Positions 27,167-31,568 of a stretch of 64,000 nucleotides of DNA are shown here, one piece after another. Source of the DNA: Aporhodopirellula aestuarii (GTDB lineage: Bacteria > Planctomycetota > Planctomycetia > Pirellulales > Pirellulaceae); assembly GCF_023701485.1 (NCBI RefSeq), contig NZ_JAMQBK010000025.1:6620-70619 (forward strand), read 5' to 3'. The translations under genes and the position numbers were made by a program. The stretch's first letter is position 1. Each line of letters starts with the position of its first letter. Below the pieces are notes generated by a model that was not told the DNA's origin, did not search any database, and worked only from the letters and a program-made list of their open reading frames with translations.

Positions 27167-28203
27167 CACGCTACCGACTCGACTAATTCCGACGCCAAAC
27201 GGATCGCCGCGATCATGCTGTGCGGCGAAGCCGTTCCTTTCCAAGCGAGGTCCATCGCGGTGCCATGGTCGACGCTCGTCCGCACGATTGGCAGTCCGAG
27301 CGTGACGTTGACCGCGTCATCAAACGAGAGTGCTTTGAGCGGAATGAGGCCTTGGTCATGATACAGGCACACGTAGACGTCGACCCGTTCCCGCATGGCG
27401 GGTGTGAAGGCGGTGTCCGGCGGCAGTGGGCCATGCACGTCCCAGCCTTCCCGGCGTGCGGTTTCGATCGCTGGGGTAACGATGCGTTCTTCTTCGCCGT
27501 GGCTGAACATGCCATGTTCCCCGGCGTGTGGGTTCAACCCGCACACACCGATTCGCGGCGGCAAAAGGCTCCCACGCCGGCGGTTGCGTCGCTGCATCGC
27601 CCGGCCTGCCATGGCAATCGTTCGGGCGAGTGAATCGGCGTCGAGCAAGCCCGGTACATCGGCCAAGGGGACATGAATCGTTTCTAAAACACAGGCGATC
27701 GTGTCGCTGGCAAGCATCATCCGCACATCAACAGGCTGCCCATCGATCGACATGCCGACCCGGTGCGCGAGCAGTTCGGTATGCCCTGGGAATTCGATCC
27801 CGGCTTGCATCCATGCTTCTTTCTGAATCGGACCGGTGACAACCGCATCGACAATTCCCGCAACCGCGGCATCAATCGCGACGCACATCGTTTCATAAGA
27901 GGCTCTTCCCGTTTCCGCCGAATACGTTCCCGGTGTCACTGCATCGGCGTTCAGTTGTCCGCAGTCGATGATGCAACCGCTGGAATCGGCAGGAAGATTG
28001 ACGACTTGGTCGAGAGAGATCGTTTCGGGCAAGGCGAGGTTCATCGATTTCGCAACACGCGCGAATAATTTGGCGTCCCCCAAGAGCAGCGGGATGCCCG
28101 ATTGAAGGACCACGTCTCGTTGCCACACACGCAGGGCTAATTCGGGGCCGATACCACCGCCATCGCCCATCGTGATTGCTAGCTTGGGGCGTGTTTCACT
28201 CAT
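27166..28203 (-). CDS. pdxA: 4-hydroxythreonine-4-phosphate dehydrogenase
   Basis: PdxA oxidises 4-phosphohydroxy-threonine in the DXP-dependent vitamin B6 pathway. Hallmarks are [13 protein letters not shown] near the start, the metal-site histidines in [23 protein letters not shown] and [11 protein letters not shown], and [10 protein letters not shown]. The ATG at 28203 gives 345 residues. It overlaps the stop of the DUF2007 gene by eight bases, and the distant upstream start at 28257 lies fully inside that gene. Confidence 0.93.
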
Positions 28204-28453
28204 TCTCGCGTTTGATCTCGTTGAGGATTTTCGTCGCCCGCTCAGCATCTTTTTCAAATACTTTTATCTGCACCAATCCAGGGGCTTCGGCACGGAAACC
28301 AGCGGTGAATCCACCCACCGCAATGGCTCGAATTCCTTCATCGGCCAAAACATTCACGAGGACACCTGCCGTCAGCTCGTTGGCACGCTCCGCAACGGTC
28401 ACTAAATTAGCCTCGTCGAGCAGGTCGTCGTTCTCATCGGAGGGCATGTTCAT
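28196..28453 (-). CDS. DUF2007-type small protein
   Basis: An 85-residue protein. [28 protein letters not shown] and the later [17 protein letters not shown] match the single alpha/beta domain of DUF2007 (ferredoxin-like ACT-type fold, called putative signal-transducing). It is the first gene of the leftward pdxA operon. Its target is unknown. Confidence 0.75.
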
Positions 28454-28538
28454 CGTTTTGTTCTTTTAAATTGAATCTTTTAAACCGTTATCATGGTGCT
28501 CGCACATTCAGCAGGCAACACGATACAATACCCACACC

Positions 28539-29504
28539 ATGAACGAACCCACCATCATTCTCTCGGGAACCGATCCCGATCTGCCGAAGGATGTACCTCC
28601 CGGGCTAAAACGATACACAGGCAAGCGAGAAATGGCGCGGGGAGGCACCGCCGTCTTGCAATCCGCCTTCGACCCGGTGACCGGTCGGACGGTGGCGATC
28701 AAAAAATTGCTGCCTGAGACTCGCTTTGATCGTCGCGAACGGCGTCGGCTCTTGCGTGAAGCTCGCGTGACGGCGCAGTTGCAGCACCCCAACACGGTCC
28801 CAGTATACGATATCGGGGAGGATGACGTCGAAGGCGTGTACTTCGTCATGAAACGGATTTCCGGTGAGAATCTTTTCGAGATTCTCAAGCGGATCGCCCG
28901 GGGCGACGAGCAAGCAATTGAGGCGTATCCGATCCCACGCCGGATCGAAATTGTCATGGCGGCGTGCCAGGCCCTCGCTTACGCACACGCCCGCGGGGTG
29001 ATTCACCGCGACGTCAAACCAGAAAACATTTGGGTTGGAAACTTTGGCGAAGTCATTTTGCTCGATTGGGGTGTTGCCAAAGTTTGGGGGCATGCCGACG
29101 ACAACGAACCGATCCAGCAAAGCACGCTCGCGCTCGGTCCAGAGATTGATACGCCGCAATTGCAAACCCTGACCGGCGGCGGCCAACGTCCGGGAACGCC
29201 GCTCTACATGTCGCCCGAACAAATCGTCGGGAACCGAACGATCGACGAACGCAGCGACGTCTTCAGTACCGGAGTCGTGCTGTACGAAGTCATGGCGATT
29301 CGGGAGCCGTTCCGAGGCAAAACGATTGACGAAACGTTCGAGAATATTCGGCATCGCGAGGTCGAGCCGCCAAGCGAACGGTCGCCGCAGTACAACATTC
29401 CGAAAGCGATTGACGCCATTGTCGAACGAGCACTTCAAAAACGTCCTGAGAAACGTTATCAGATGATGCGGGATTTGATTGCCGATCTCCGGGACCTCGT
29501 TTGA
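28539..29504 (+). CDS. Ser/Thr protein kinase, soluble, Hanks type
   Basis: A 321-residue kinase made of a catalytic domain only, with no transmembrane segment or sensor domain. Visible motifs are a weakened Gly loop (ARGGTAV, 34-39), VAIKK with K55, alpha-C E74, catalytic HRDVKPEN (H156, D158, N163), DWG at 176-178 in place of DFG, GTPLYMSPEQ (about 219-228) and RSD with D240. All catalytic residues are present, so it should be active. Its stop overlaps the TTG start of the TOPRIM gene (29501-29504), so the two proteins are co-translated. It is divergent from the pdxA operon; the 85-base gap must hold both promoters. Confidence 0.9.
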   Translation: MNEPTIILSGTDPDLPKDVPPGLKRYTGKREMARGGTAVLQSAFDPVTGRTVAIKKLLPETRFDRRERRRLLREARVTAQLQHPNTVPVYDIGEDDVEGVYFVMKRISGENLFEILKRIARGDEQAIEAYPIPRRIEIVMAACQALAYAHARGVIHRDVKPENIWVGNFGEVILLDWGVAKVWGHADDNEPIQQSTLALGPEIDTPQLQTLTGGGQRPGTPLYMSPEQIVGNRTIDERSDVFSTGVVLYEVMAIREPFRGKTIDETFENIRHREVEPPSERSPQYNIPKAIDAIVERALQKRPEKRYQMMRDLIADLRDLV

Positions 29505-30253
29505 TCGCATACGGAAAACAGCCGACCCACTACCCTTGCGAGGTCGTTGGGCCGGTCGGTTCGGTTCCGCCCCAGTCGGTTCCGTCCCTGTCAGTTCACA
29601 GTACCGTGCCGGGAACCGAATGCTTGATCGTCGAAGGCGACAGCGCGGCGAAGTCGGTCGATCAAGTTCGCGACGCTCGGCATCAAGCGATCTTGGCACT
29701 GCAAGGGAAACCGCTCAATGCCATCAAAGCGGGACGCGCCGCGGTGAGGAAGAACGAAGTCTTTTTGCGAGTCTTCGAAACACTGCTGGGTTATCGATCA
29801 TCGGACACCAGCGGCGTGAACGACCCTCTCGTCCGATTGGCGTCGTCGCAGCACTGTGTGTATGAGTCGATTGTCCTATTGATGGACCCCGACGCCGACG
29901 GCATCCACTGCGGCGTTTTAATGATGGCGTTCTTTCGGAAATTTGCGGCTGATCTCATCCGTGCGGGACGGCTACACGTGGTTCGTCCGCCGATGTTTGT
30001 ATTCCGACTGCCCGGCCATGCTCGCTTGGATCCGTCACAGTGGCCCGTCGCTTCGAGCCCCGAACATGCCGACGCGATCGAGCGAACATTGCGTCAACAC
30101 GGGGTGGACCGTTTTGAAAAAATTCGTCATCGCGGTTTGGGTAGCCTCGATATCCCATTGTTGGGGTACAGCTGTGTCGATCCGGTTTCGCGACGTCAGT
30201 CGTCTTTGACGATCAAAGAAGTCGACAGCGCGATCACCCTGTTCGGCGGCTAA
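29501..30253 (+). CDS. TOPRIM-only protein resembling the GyrB/ParE C-terminal half
   Basis: Motifs align with the TOPRIM domain of type IIA topoisomerase B subunits: VEGDSA with E45, QGKPLNAIKA, and LLMDPDADGIH with D129, D131 and D133, followed by PPMFVF. The final RHRGLGSL ... VDPVSRRQSSLTI matches the conserved YKGLGEM ... DPETRRLLQV tail. All four metal-binding acids are kept. The whole ATPase/transducer half is missing, and the E. coli-type insert is absent. The protein is 250 residues and starts with TTG overlapping the kinase stop. It could cut or bind DNA with a partner, or be a regulator; the function is unknown. It is not an obvious fragment, because the frame is intact and ends properly. 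Confidence 0.8.
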   Translation: MIAYGKQPTHYPCEVVGPVGSVPPQSVPSLSVHSTVPGTECLIVEGDSAAKSVDQVRDARHQAILALQGKPLNAIKAGRAAVRKNEVFLRVFETLLGYRSSDTSGVNDPLVRLASSQHCVYESIVLLMDPDADGIHCGVLMMAFFRKFAADLIRAGRLHVVRPPMFVFRLPGHARLDPSQWPVASSPEHADAIERTLRQHGVDRFEKIRHRGLGSLDIPLLGYSCVDPVSRRQSSLTIKEVDSAITLFGG

Positions 30254-30644
30254 TGTTTCGTCAGCATTGAAACATCGAGCGAGACCGGACGGCGCACGCC
30301 GTTCCGCAAAATCTTTTTAGCGGCAGGACGCGAGCCCTCCGGTGTGTGCACTGGTACCCAATAAACAACCATGCGACTCATCCGGCACCGCCACAATAGG
30401 CCTGTGTTCGAGGCGTGACACCCAGCGGCTTGCGACGCTCCGCTATCAAGTACTTCCTAGCGGCAGGGTGCGGAGCCCTCCGGTTCCAGCAACCCTTGCG
30501 ATTAGGCTACGCGAAACGCCATAACCTTCGCTCGTTCGTAACCGGTGGCAATGGCAACCCTGATTAACGCGAACATTCGTTAACGCCGCAAACGGACCGA
30601 ATCACCACATCCAACAGATGCCGTTTCATGGAAGGATGACGCGA
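30254..30644. other. intergenic region with degenerate P1 repeat pieces
   Basis: Holds half-copies of the P1 palindrome: GGACGGCGCACGCCGTTCCGC (30287-30307), AGCGGCAGGACGCGAGCC (30319-30336) and a similar block at 30459-30485. It separates the rightward TOPRIM gene from the leftward rnc. I see no gene here. Confidence 0.55.
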
Positions 30645-31568
30645 CTATTTTCGTTTGTCGTTCGTGGCCGCGTCATCGACATCGTCGCTGCGGTGCGGAA
30701 TCGGCTGTTGGTGCAGTTCCGCCAAAGCATTCGCTGCGGCACGCTGCTCGGCGTCCTTCTTGTTGTTACCCCAGGCAGGTGCGAAGGCGCGTTGGTCGAT
30801 GACAGCGCCGATCAAAAACGTCTTGCGGTGATCCGGGCCGCTTTCTCGGATCAATTTGTAGACCGGCGTGGAGGCGAGTTCACGCTGTGCGTATTGTTGC
30901 AACACAGACTTATGATTGCCCGAACCTTGGGTGTCGACCGCGAGCCGCACTTCTTCAGCGAGCCACTGCTTCAGTCGATCTCGCACAACGTCGGCACCAC
31001 CATCGAGGTAAAGTGCCGCGATCACGGATTCGAATACATCGCTGACCAGCGACCGGGGGTAACTCCGGTTGCGAGTCACGCCTCGTCCGACGATCAAACA
31101 TTCATCGAGTCCGAGTTGGGTTGCGGTCCGTCCGCATGCCCGCCTGCTGACGACGGCGGACTTGATCTTCGTCAGATCGCCCTCGCTGTACTCGGGGTAT
31201 TCCTCAAACAGCCATTGGCAAACGGTCATCCCCAAGATGGCGTCGCCGAGAAATTCGAGCCGTTCATTACTCGACAACCGATTGGCGGCGCCGGAGGCGT
31301 GAGTCAACGCGGCTTTTAACAGCGAGGGGTCTTTGAATTGGTAGTCCAGGATTTCCTGGCATCGCTGAATCTTGGCGTCTGAGTCCGCGTAGGGTTGGTC
31401 CGCCGCGGCGGTGTCGATCAAGTGAATCGCGCCTGGGTGATTGGTGCGTTGATCGGCAACGAATTGCCCAGGCCCCGCAAGGTCTGAGTCAGACGGGGGC
31501 GGAGCAGGAGAGACGGCGCGGGTGTTCGGGGCATCCTCAGATGCCGGGTCGGATTCTGCAGCGGGCAA
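30645..31568 (-). CDS. rnc: ribonuclease III
   Basis: Cuts double-stranded RNA in rRNA and mRNA processing. The signature NERLEFLGDAIL lies at 101-112, with E102 and D109 as metal ligands, and SDVFESVIAALYLD supplies D177 and E180. A C-terminal double-stranded-RNA-binding domain follows (NHKSVLQQYAQREL ... WGNNKKDAEQRAAANAL). An unusual N-terminal extension of about 65 residues rich in Ala, Pro and Asp precedes the domain. The start could be later, but no better start with a ribosome site is visible. Confidence 0.93.
   Translation of the reverse strand: MPAAESDPASEDAPNTRAVSPAPPPSDSDLAGPGQFVADQRTNHPGAIHLIDTAAADQPYADSDAKIQRCQEILDYQFKDPSLLKAALTHASGAANRLSSNERLEFLGDAILGMTVCQWLFEEYPEYSEGDLTKIKSAVVSRRACGRTATQLGLDECLIVGRGVTRNRSYPRSLVSDVFESVIAALYLDGGADVVRDRLKQWLAEEVRLAVDTQGSGNHKSVLQQYAQRELASTPVYKLIRESGPDHRKTFLIGAVIDQRAFAPAWGNNKKDAEQRAAANALAELHQQPIPHRSDDVDDAATNDKRK

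Follow-up and report, generated by a model that had tools for sequence, protein, structure and literature searches.

A kinase gene overlaps a gene for a solo TOPRIM protein

The stretch of DNA analysed here (the window) comprises 64,000 nt of contig NZ_JAMQBK010000025.1 from Aporhodopirellula aestuarii, whose 9.07 Mb genome is assembled in 165 contigs (completeness 100, contamination 3.32). Positions 28539..29504 (+ strand) encode a Hanks-type Ser/Thr kinase of 321 aa (PF00069), with an ATG start codon and a TGA stop codon at 29502-29504. The next gene (29501..30253, + strand; TTG start codon at 29501-29503) encodes a 250-aa protein that we refer to as the solo TOPRIM protein, a paralogue of the GyrB/ParE cleavage core without the ATPase and transducer. 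Its TTG start codon lies over the kinase TGA in a TTGA overlap (29501..29504, + strand), which confirms the arrangement given in the preliminary description. The TOPRIM start codon lies one base before the kinase stop codon in 12 of the 13 genomes of the genus; in the thirteenth (G001), the TOPRIM gene starts with an ATG 15 bases past the kinase stop codon, and the gene order is unchanged. In other genera, an ATG lies close to the aligned start position of many solo TOPRIM genes, and the presence of start codons at the matching place in relatives supports the TTG as the start of the TOPRIM gene.

Both reading frames look to be under purifying selection. By the Nei-Gojobori method, dN/dS was 0.07-0.10 for the solo TOPRIM gene in five of six pairs within the genus (the sixth had infinite dS) and 0.02-0.06 for the kinase gene in five pairs, with dS above 1 in every kinase and solo TOPRIM pair measured. 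No Rfam model matched positions 28000-31000. A short interspersed repeat, AGCGGCAGGnnGCGAGCCCTCCGG, occurs in the window in nine copies with up to three mismatches at 15776-51216 (number expected, 0); the copy nearest the unit, at 30319-30342, lies just 3′ of the TOPRIM gene.

The kinase matches PF00069 over residues 27-310 (E 6.6e-40), and its open reading frame stops right after the kinase domain. Both this score and the catalytic Lys, Glu, HRD and D(F/W)G elements identify it as a Hanks-type Ser/Thr kinase: K55, E74, D158 and D176-W-G are all present, at the positions reported previously.

The solo TOPRIM protein retains the metal site and lacks the ATPase half

The solo TOPRIM protein scores 37.4 bits with the Toprim model PF01751, above the cut-off of 23.1. 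At E up to 1, Pfam gave no ATPase or transducer match to the 250-aa protein, and its NCBIfam matches reach only the C-terminal part of the gyrB and parE models, with scores short of the curated ones (85.0 versus 740, 76.0 versus 882.4 and 72.1 versus 723.35 bits). Pfam and NCBIfam therefore both bear out the earlier proposal that the GHKL ATPase and transducer domains of GyrB and ParE are missing. The N-terminus falls approximately at the start of the TOPRIM part of GyrB/ParE, and the P-x-KL-x-DC lead of ParE and GyrB is found there in about two-thirds of 32 solo sequences, and not in this genus.

We examined conservation in 45 sequences, of which 32 were alignment rows and 13 were fetched from profile hits, and in eight further copies that the profile found and the pattern missed. 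Since alignment rows from outside the genus were mostly picked by the DPDADGIHC pattern, invariance in the first alignment is partly a matter of choice; the eight further copies, with the 13 profile-fetched loci, provide a freer check. The TOPRIM Glu and the DxDxD metal site of GyrB/ParE are present: E45 (codon 29633..29635, + strand; in VEGDSA) and D129, D131 and D133 (in DPDADGIHC, residues 129-137; 29885..29911, + strand) are found in 45/45 rows and 8/8 further copies, so that the metal site is kept in 53/53. DPDADGIH is a signature of the family; the following C137 occurs in 44/45 rows and in none of the eight further copies, all of which have Gly or Ala. Beyond the metal site, G69-K70-P71, N73, H136, P164, R211-G-L and R231 are invariant in the 45 rows, and all eight further copies keep E-G-x-S-A, Q-G-K-P and DPDADGIH, one of them having RGI in place of RGL. 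The acidic residues, RGLG (211-214) and DPVSRR (from 227) lie where the preliminary description had put them.

Compared with ParE and GyrB, the solo group shares Q at position 68, Pro in place of Ala at 130 and Arg in place of Lys at 211, and it has lost the RRxFI segment. QGKPLN (68-73; 29702..29719, + strand) is the counterpart of the RGK-x-x-N DNA-binding loop, with Q68 replacing the ParE/GyrB Arg; position 68 is Q in 42/45 rows (R in three) and in 8/8 further copies. By our own reading of the sequences, that Arg would correspond to R482 of Mycobacterium tuberculosis GyrB, which excerpts of the published work place in this loop of the quinolone pocket (PMC2923608). RGLGS (211-215; 30131..30145, + strand) is the counterpart of the KGLGE hinge motif, which reads RGL(G/A)(S/other) in solo proteins, with the K to R change in 45/45 rows. 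In a three-way alignment, the C-terminal RRxFI segment of ParE/GyrB is absent from all 32 solo rows; neither the KGLGE hinge motif nor this segment is therefore retained in its GyrB/ParE form. Within the genus, 24 positions are fixed or nearly so and are rare in 25 rows from elsewhere. They include S185, which is Ser in 12 of the 13 genomes (Tyr in one) and Ser or Thr in only 1/25 rows elsewhere.

The AlphaFold model of the solo protein has a mean pLDDT of 90.4 and a pTM of 0.89, and the PDB structures that it matches best are cores of topoisomerase IV and gyrase (5eix, E 3.6e-15). A profile search of the PDB likewise returned gyrase and topoisomerase IV core chains as its first four matches (E 3.1e-49 to 8.7e-49). 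Viral matches at E of 0.001 or less numbered 28, and those that carry a name are topoisomerases.

Solo TOPRIM proteins form a separate group, seen here only in Pirellulales

The genome also encodes a complete GyrB (open frame of 911 aa) and a complete ParE (644 aa), which answers the question, raised in the preliminary description, of whether the organism has normal copies of both. We built a tree from the TOPRIM regions of 32 solo, 12 ParE and 16 GyrB proteins. The solo proteins group together in it with support of 100/100, and a branch of about two changes per column splits this group from all ParE and GyrB rows, every one of which falls outside it. Several solo rows are long-branched, as the tree program warned, and the inner order of the group is unsure; the stem of the solo proteins of this genus is itself long (1.36), as are several other solo branches. 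The solo TOPRIM family is, on this sequence tree, monophyletic, and makes up a third class of TOPRIM cores beside those of GyrB and ParE.

When 396 genomes sampled from the order were searched with a profile, 75 proved to have the solo gene; they belong to families f1 (the source family, which we take to be Pirellulaceae, the family of Rhodopirellula) and f8 (the second family), and in one case to f7. All 24 positive genomes among 397 sampled from the class are Pirellulales, and a sample of the phylum, for which we applied a stringent limit and a previous profile built from 13 rows, yielded one positive among 246, namely the source genome itself. As far as we have searched, the solo family is special to Pirellulales. 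Within the source family, the profile detected the gene in 61 of the 170 genomes that are at least 90% complete, representing 11 of 55 genera. A DNA pattern for DPDADGIHC matched 58/241 genomes of the family, with at most one copy in each, and the reversed control pattern had no matches among the rows listed. A scan of genome contigs with the peptide pattern returned four loci, all in this genus (Rhodopirellula, Neorhodopirellula). Copies in G003, G008, G395 and G431 were flagged with one internal TGA; their translations are open, and we took the flagged TGA to be the gene's own end. One solo copy (G370:C1:854227-854820) has an internal stop, in a genome that retains topoisomerase IV. Long frames at 13 fetched loci of the second family initially resembled fusion proteins; by reading, they share a start motif further in and look like unrelated GC-rich upstream extensions.

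We also rejected a phage or mobile origin, as no viral relative was found as far as tested: 127 stretches of viral contigs matched the pattern and none encodes a solo relative, and 618 phage records that match are all below 60% identity, the four annotated ones among 15 listed being topoisomerase or gyrase. Outside the genus, neither reading nor clustering of neighbours revealed a partner gene in a fixed place, and neighbour clusters common to at least three genera are antisense to the TOPRIM region or occur at varying places. In these limited searches, which gave no viral relative and, outside the genus, no neighbour family in a constant position, nothing pointed to a role in defence. We found no description of the solo TOPRIM family in the open-licence PMC literature on planctomycete and Rhodopirellula topoisomerases and GyrB paralogues.

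The solo gene co-occurs with topoisomerase IV

Among 49 genomes selected with a strict pattern, two GyrA-type and two GyrB-type genes were present in 24/24 solo carriers but in only 10/25 non-carriers. A profile search of those 25, together with three carriers, found a divergent solo copy in G316 and the copy with a stop in G370. We then considered the 170 genomes of the source family, classed for topoisomerase IV by the number and E-value type of the profile matches, among the matches listed; the classes were checked with PF00521 in 15 genomes, and 24 carriers were checked separately. Among the matches listed, topoisomerase IV was present in 53/61 solo carriers versus 46/108 non-carriers; eight carriers lacked it, 62 non-carriers were gyrase-only, and one genome (G469) was undetermined. 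By genus, again among the matches listed, 11 had both the solo gene and topoisomerase IV, six had topoisomerase IV only, 37 had neither and none had the solo gene only, such that the solo gene occurs in 11/17 genera with topoisomerase IV and 0/37 gyrase-only genera. These counts cover this one family and, like the Fisher tests made on them, ignore shared descent, which could give much of the pattern.

Two further observations concern the enzymes themselves. Gyrase-only lineages are common in the family, topoisomerase IV being seemingly absent from 70 of 169 classifiable genomes among the matches listed (62 without and eight with the solo gene). G384 has four profile matches and two GyrA-type genes, with no solo copy among the matches listed.

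The eight carriers without topoisomerase IV all belong to one genus (g11), in which the enzyme is present in other members. We read this as the solo gene having probably arisen while its host lineage had topoisomerase IV and having outlived the loss of that enzyme. The eight exceptions weaken the idea of a strict dependence of the solo gene on topoisomerase IV, and indicate that ParC is not obligatory.

Pairing of the two genes is confined to one genus

A tblastn search placed the kinase, at 74.8-100% identity, next to the TOPRIM gene in 13/13 genomes of the genus. The coupled unit proposed at the outset is thus real and genus-wide. We examined ten loci of the genus over about 6 kb on each side, the window included: all ten have the pair, nine have a DUF2007 gene, five have pdxA and three have rnc, and the pair is retained at loci with neither pdxA nor rnc in view nearby. 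The DUF2007 gene (PF09413; 28196..28453, - strand), for a putative signal-transducing protein, is divergent from the kinase gene; we do not claim it as a member of the unit.

This kinase was near none of the 29 solo loci examined in other genera. Four of these loci do carry other kinases no more than about 6 kb away, with identities of about 30%: in L062 and L072, both of genus g14, the solo gene is immediately preceded, on its own strand, by the gene for a different PknB-like kinase, and in L080 and L084 the kinase genes are farther away. Planctomycetes encode many kinases, and we accordingly treat these four cases as a curiosity; the g14 neighbourhood could be a second, looser association or chance. 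Relatives of the kinase itself, at 47-76% identity, occur in 10/47 genomes outside the genus (60-genome sample, E up to 1e-60), some of which carry no TOPRIM gene. G023 and G025 encode both a kinase relative and a solo TOPRIM protein, at separate places. The genes 3′ of the kinase vary among genomes in the seven of 13 fetched loci in which the kinase was located by motif, a set that excludes the G025 orthologue. Given that the kinase elsewhere lies apart from the solo gene and that its downstream genes are variable, the coupling is most simply read as having arisen once and been retained in one genus. The expectation that the genes would be found side by side in planctomycetes was borne out within the genus (13/13) and failed elsewhere, where they lie apart. 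A general kinase-TOPRIM system is not supported, given the wider range of the TOPRIM family, the 29 outside loci without the kinase and the kinase relatives without a TOPRIM gene.

It is possible that the two proteins are functionally unrelated, and that an adjacency inherited from the ancestor of the genus persists because overlapping ends resist separation. One origin in one genus would suffice for this, and kinase relatives without a TOPRIM gene, like the separate locations of the two genes in G023 and G025, are as it predicts. However, the pair has been kept in 13/13 genomes despite dS above 1, whereas pdxA and rnc are near it at only 5/10 and 3/10 loci, and G001 preserves the same order with a 15-base gap and no overlap. 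We regard an accidental pairing as a serious possibility, somewhat short of probable. If the proteins are instead related in function, the coupling suggests that the kinase may act on the TOPRIM protein. A phrase search of the open-licence PMC literature found no paper on GyrB phosphorylation together with a kinase; a table seen in excerpt lists M. tuberculosis GyrA and GyrB with succinylation and phosphorylation, with no kinase named there.

A possible ATP-independent subunit for ParC or GyrA

We tentatively propose, at somewhat less than even odds, that the solo protein docks on ParC or GyrA as an ATP-independent cleavage-core subunit that is tuned by the kinase in this genus. The solo protein would take the place of ParE or GyrB on ParC, or on GyrA where topoisomerase IV is absent, and once docked would supply Mg2+ for cleavage and religation. 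With no ATP gate in the solo protein, the complex would be expected to carry out ATP-independent relaxation or nicking, as a natural analogue of GyrA2/GyrB47-2; alternatively, a docked solo protein might temper the full enzyme through mixed complexes. In one genus, the solo gene would have come to lie behind a Ser/Thr kinase gene, and co-translation could let the kinase modify and switch the solo protein. A candidate phosphorylation site is S185, within VAS(S/N)P(E/D)HA; its replacement by Tyr in one of the 13 genomes counts against that role.

Two precedents make docking plausible. According to excerpts of the published reports, the isolated TOPRIM domain of M. tuberculosis together with GyrA breaks DNA, with some nicking, in assays with moxifloxacin (PMC2923608), and GyrA2/GyrB47-2, which lacks the ATPase half, relaxes DNA without ATP (PMC7897471). 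We consider docking to be the best explanation of the separate tree group, the conserved residues, the matches of the AlphaFold model, these precedents, the co-distribution with topoisomerase IV and the 13/13 link to the kinase. Against it stand the loss of RRxFI, the eight carriers without topoisomerase IV, the want of a fixed neighbour outside the genus and the confinement of the pairing to one genus. In particular, the absence of RRxFI and the changed KGLGE suggest that docking on ParC or GyrA may be lost or altered, and the missing end segment and changed hinge lead us to consider a free-standing nuclease or a regulator as alternatives.

Other TOPRIM nucleases work on their own, and the solo protein could have left the type IIA machine to become an independent metal-site nuclease that cuts or processes DNA or RNA. 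Such a nuclease would be expected to keep the metal site while losing both RRxFI at the C-terminus and the Glu of KGLGE, to persist in the eight genomes without topoisomerase IV and to have no fixed neighbour outside the genus, all of which we observe. It would not be expected to keep the GyrB-specific GK-P-x-N loop, H136, P164, the R-G-L hinge and R231, or to co-occur with topoisomerase IV by genus, and we consider this explanation rather unlikely.

An inhibitor or assembly regulator, competing with ParE or GyrB to form idle mixed complexes that the kinase releases or fixes, would account for the retention of just the portion turned towards DNA and the A subunit. It would also fit the finding that, in this family, every genus with the gene has topoisomerase IV, though one of them includes members without that enzyme. 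However, a decoy needs no order-wide conservation of all catalytic acids, and the conserved E and DPDADGIH motifs are more than a pure decoy should need; moreover, the solo proteins lack a C-terminal segment that is conserved in ParE and GyrB. We judge this role to be unlikely.

It is hardly conceivable that the solo gene is a decaying or recent gyrB/parE fragment, as its missing N-terminal half and the internal stop in the G370 copy might suggest: the tree, in which all ParE and GyrB rows fall outside the solo group, and the spread over the order Pirellulales rule out a recent gyrB fragment, which the preliminary description had named as a refuting finding, and dN/dS of at most 0.10 in those pairs of the genus that could be measured, together with the conserved metal site, also speaks against decay.

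The docking proposal in its fullest form holds that Pirellulales have a third B subunit, free of an ATP gate, that makes an ATP-independent complex for cleavage or relaxation with ParC or GyrA and is switched by a co-translated kinase in Rhodopirellula-type bacteria. That whole combination we consider improbable; if true, it would be a kinase-gated natural counterpart of the laboratory enzyme GyrA2/GyrB47-2.

Comparison with known systems

Type IIA topoisomerases are regarded as ATP-gated machines. A gene for the cutting half alone would show that the ATP-free core serves cells as a component in its own right. The solo gene, with its acids conserved over the order and its place beside a complete gyrase and usually topoisomerase IV, would offer a simple test of whether a cell can run and regulate a cleavage core on its own, with phosphorylation perhaps acting as the switch in one genus.

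The type II topoisomerase of phage T4 (gp39, gp60, gp52) has a split large subunit, with the TOPRIM part a separate protein. The T4 entry 8yo3 (gp39-gp60 subunit) is a weaker sequence match to the solo protein (E 6.9e-13) and, unlike the phage enzyme, the solo protein is accompanied in its host by a complete ParE and GyrB. Other Hanks-type kinases of Pirellulales share PF00069 with the present kinase, as orthologues or paralogues, but only in this genus have we seen the kinase adjoin a solo TOPRIM gene. Compared with the GyrB/ParE core, the solo protein lacks RRxFI, has Q in place of the loop R in nearly all rows and has R in place of the K of KGLGE. Tuwongella immobilis has a second GyrA/GyrB pair, whose GyrB paralogue, according to excerpts of the report, is shorter than the main GyrB and is without the insert between the Toprim and C-terminal domains (PMC8567305); we infer from these excerpts that it is otherwise a complete, full-length ParE-type subunit. 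Among the closest counterparts of the solo protein are the constructs GyrB47, GyrB27, ParE30 and M. tuberculosis TopBK, which share its fold and metal acids and have a similar extent (TOPRIM, tail and hinge); unlike them, the solo protein is the product of a natural, separate gene with its own group in the tree.
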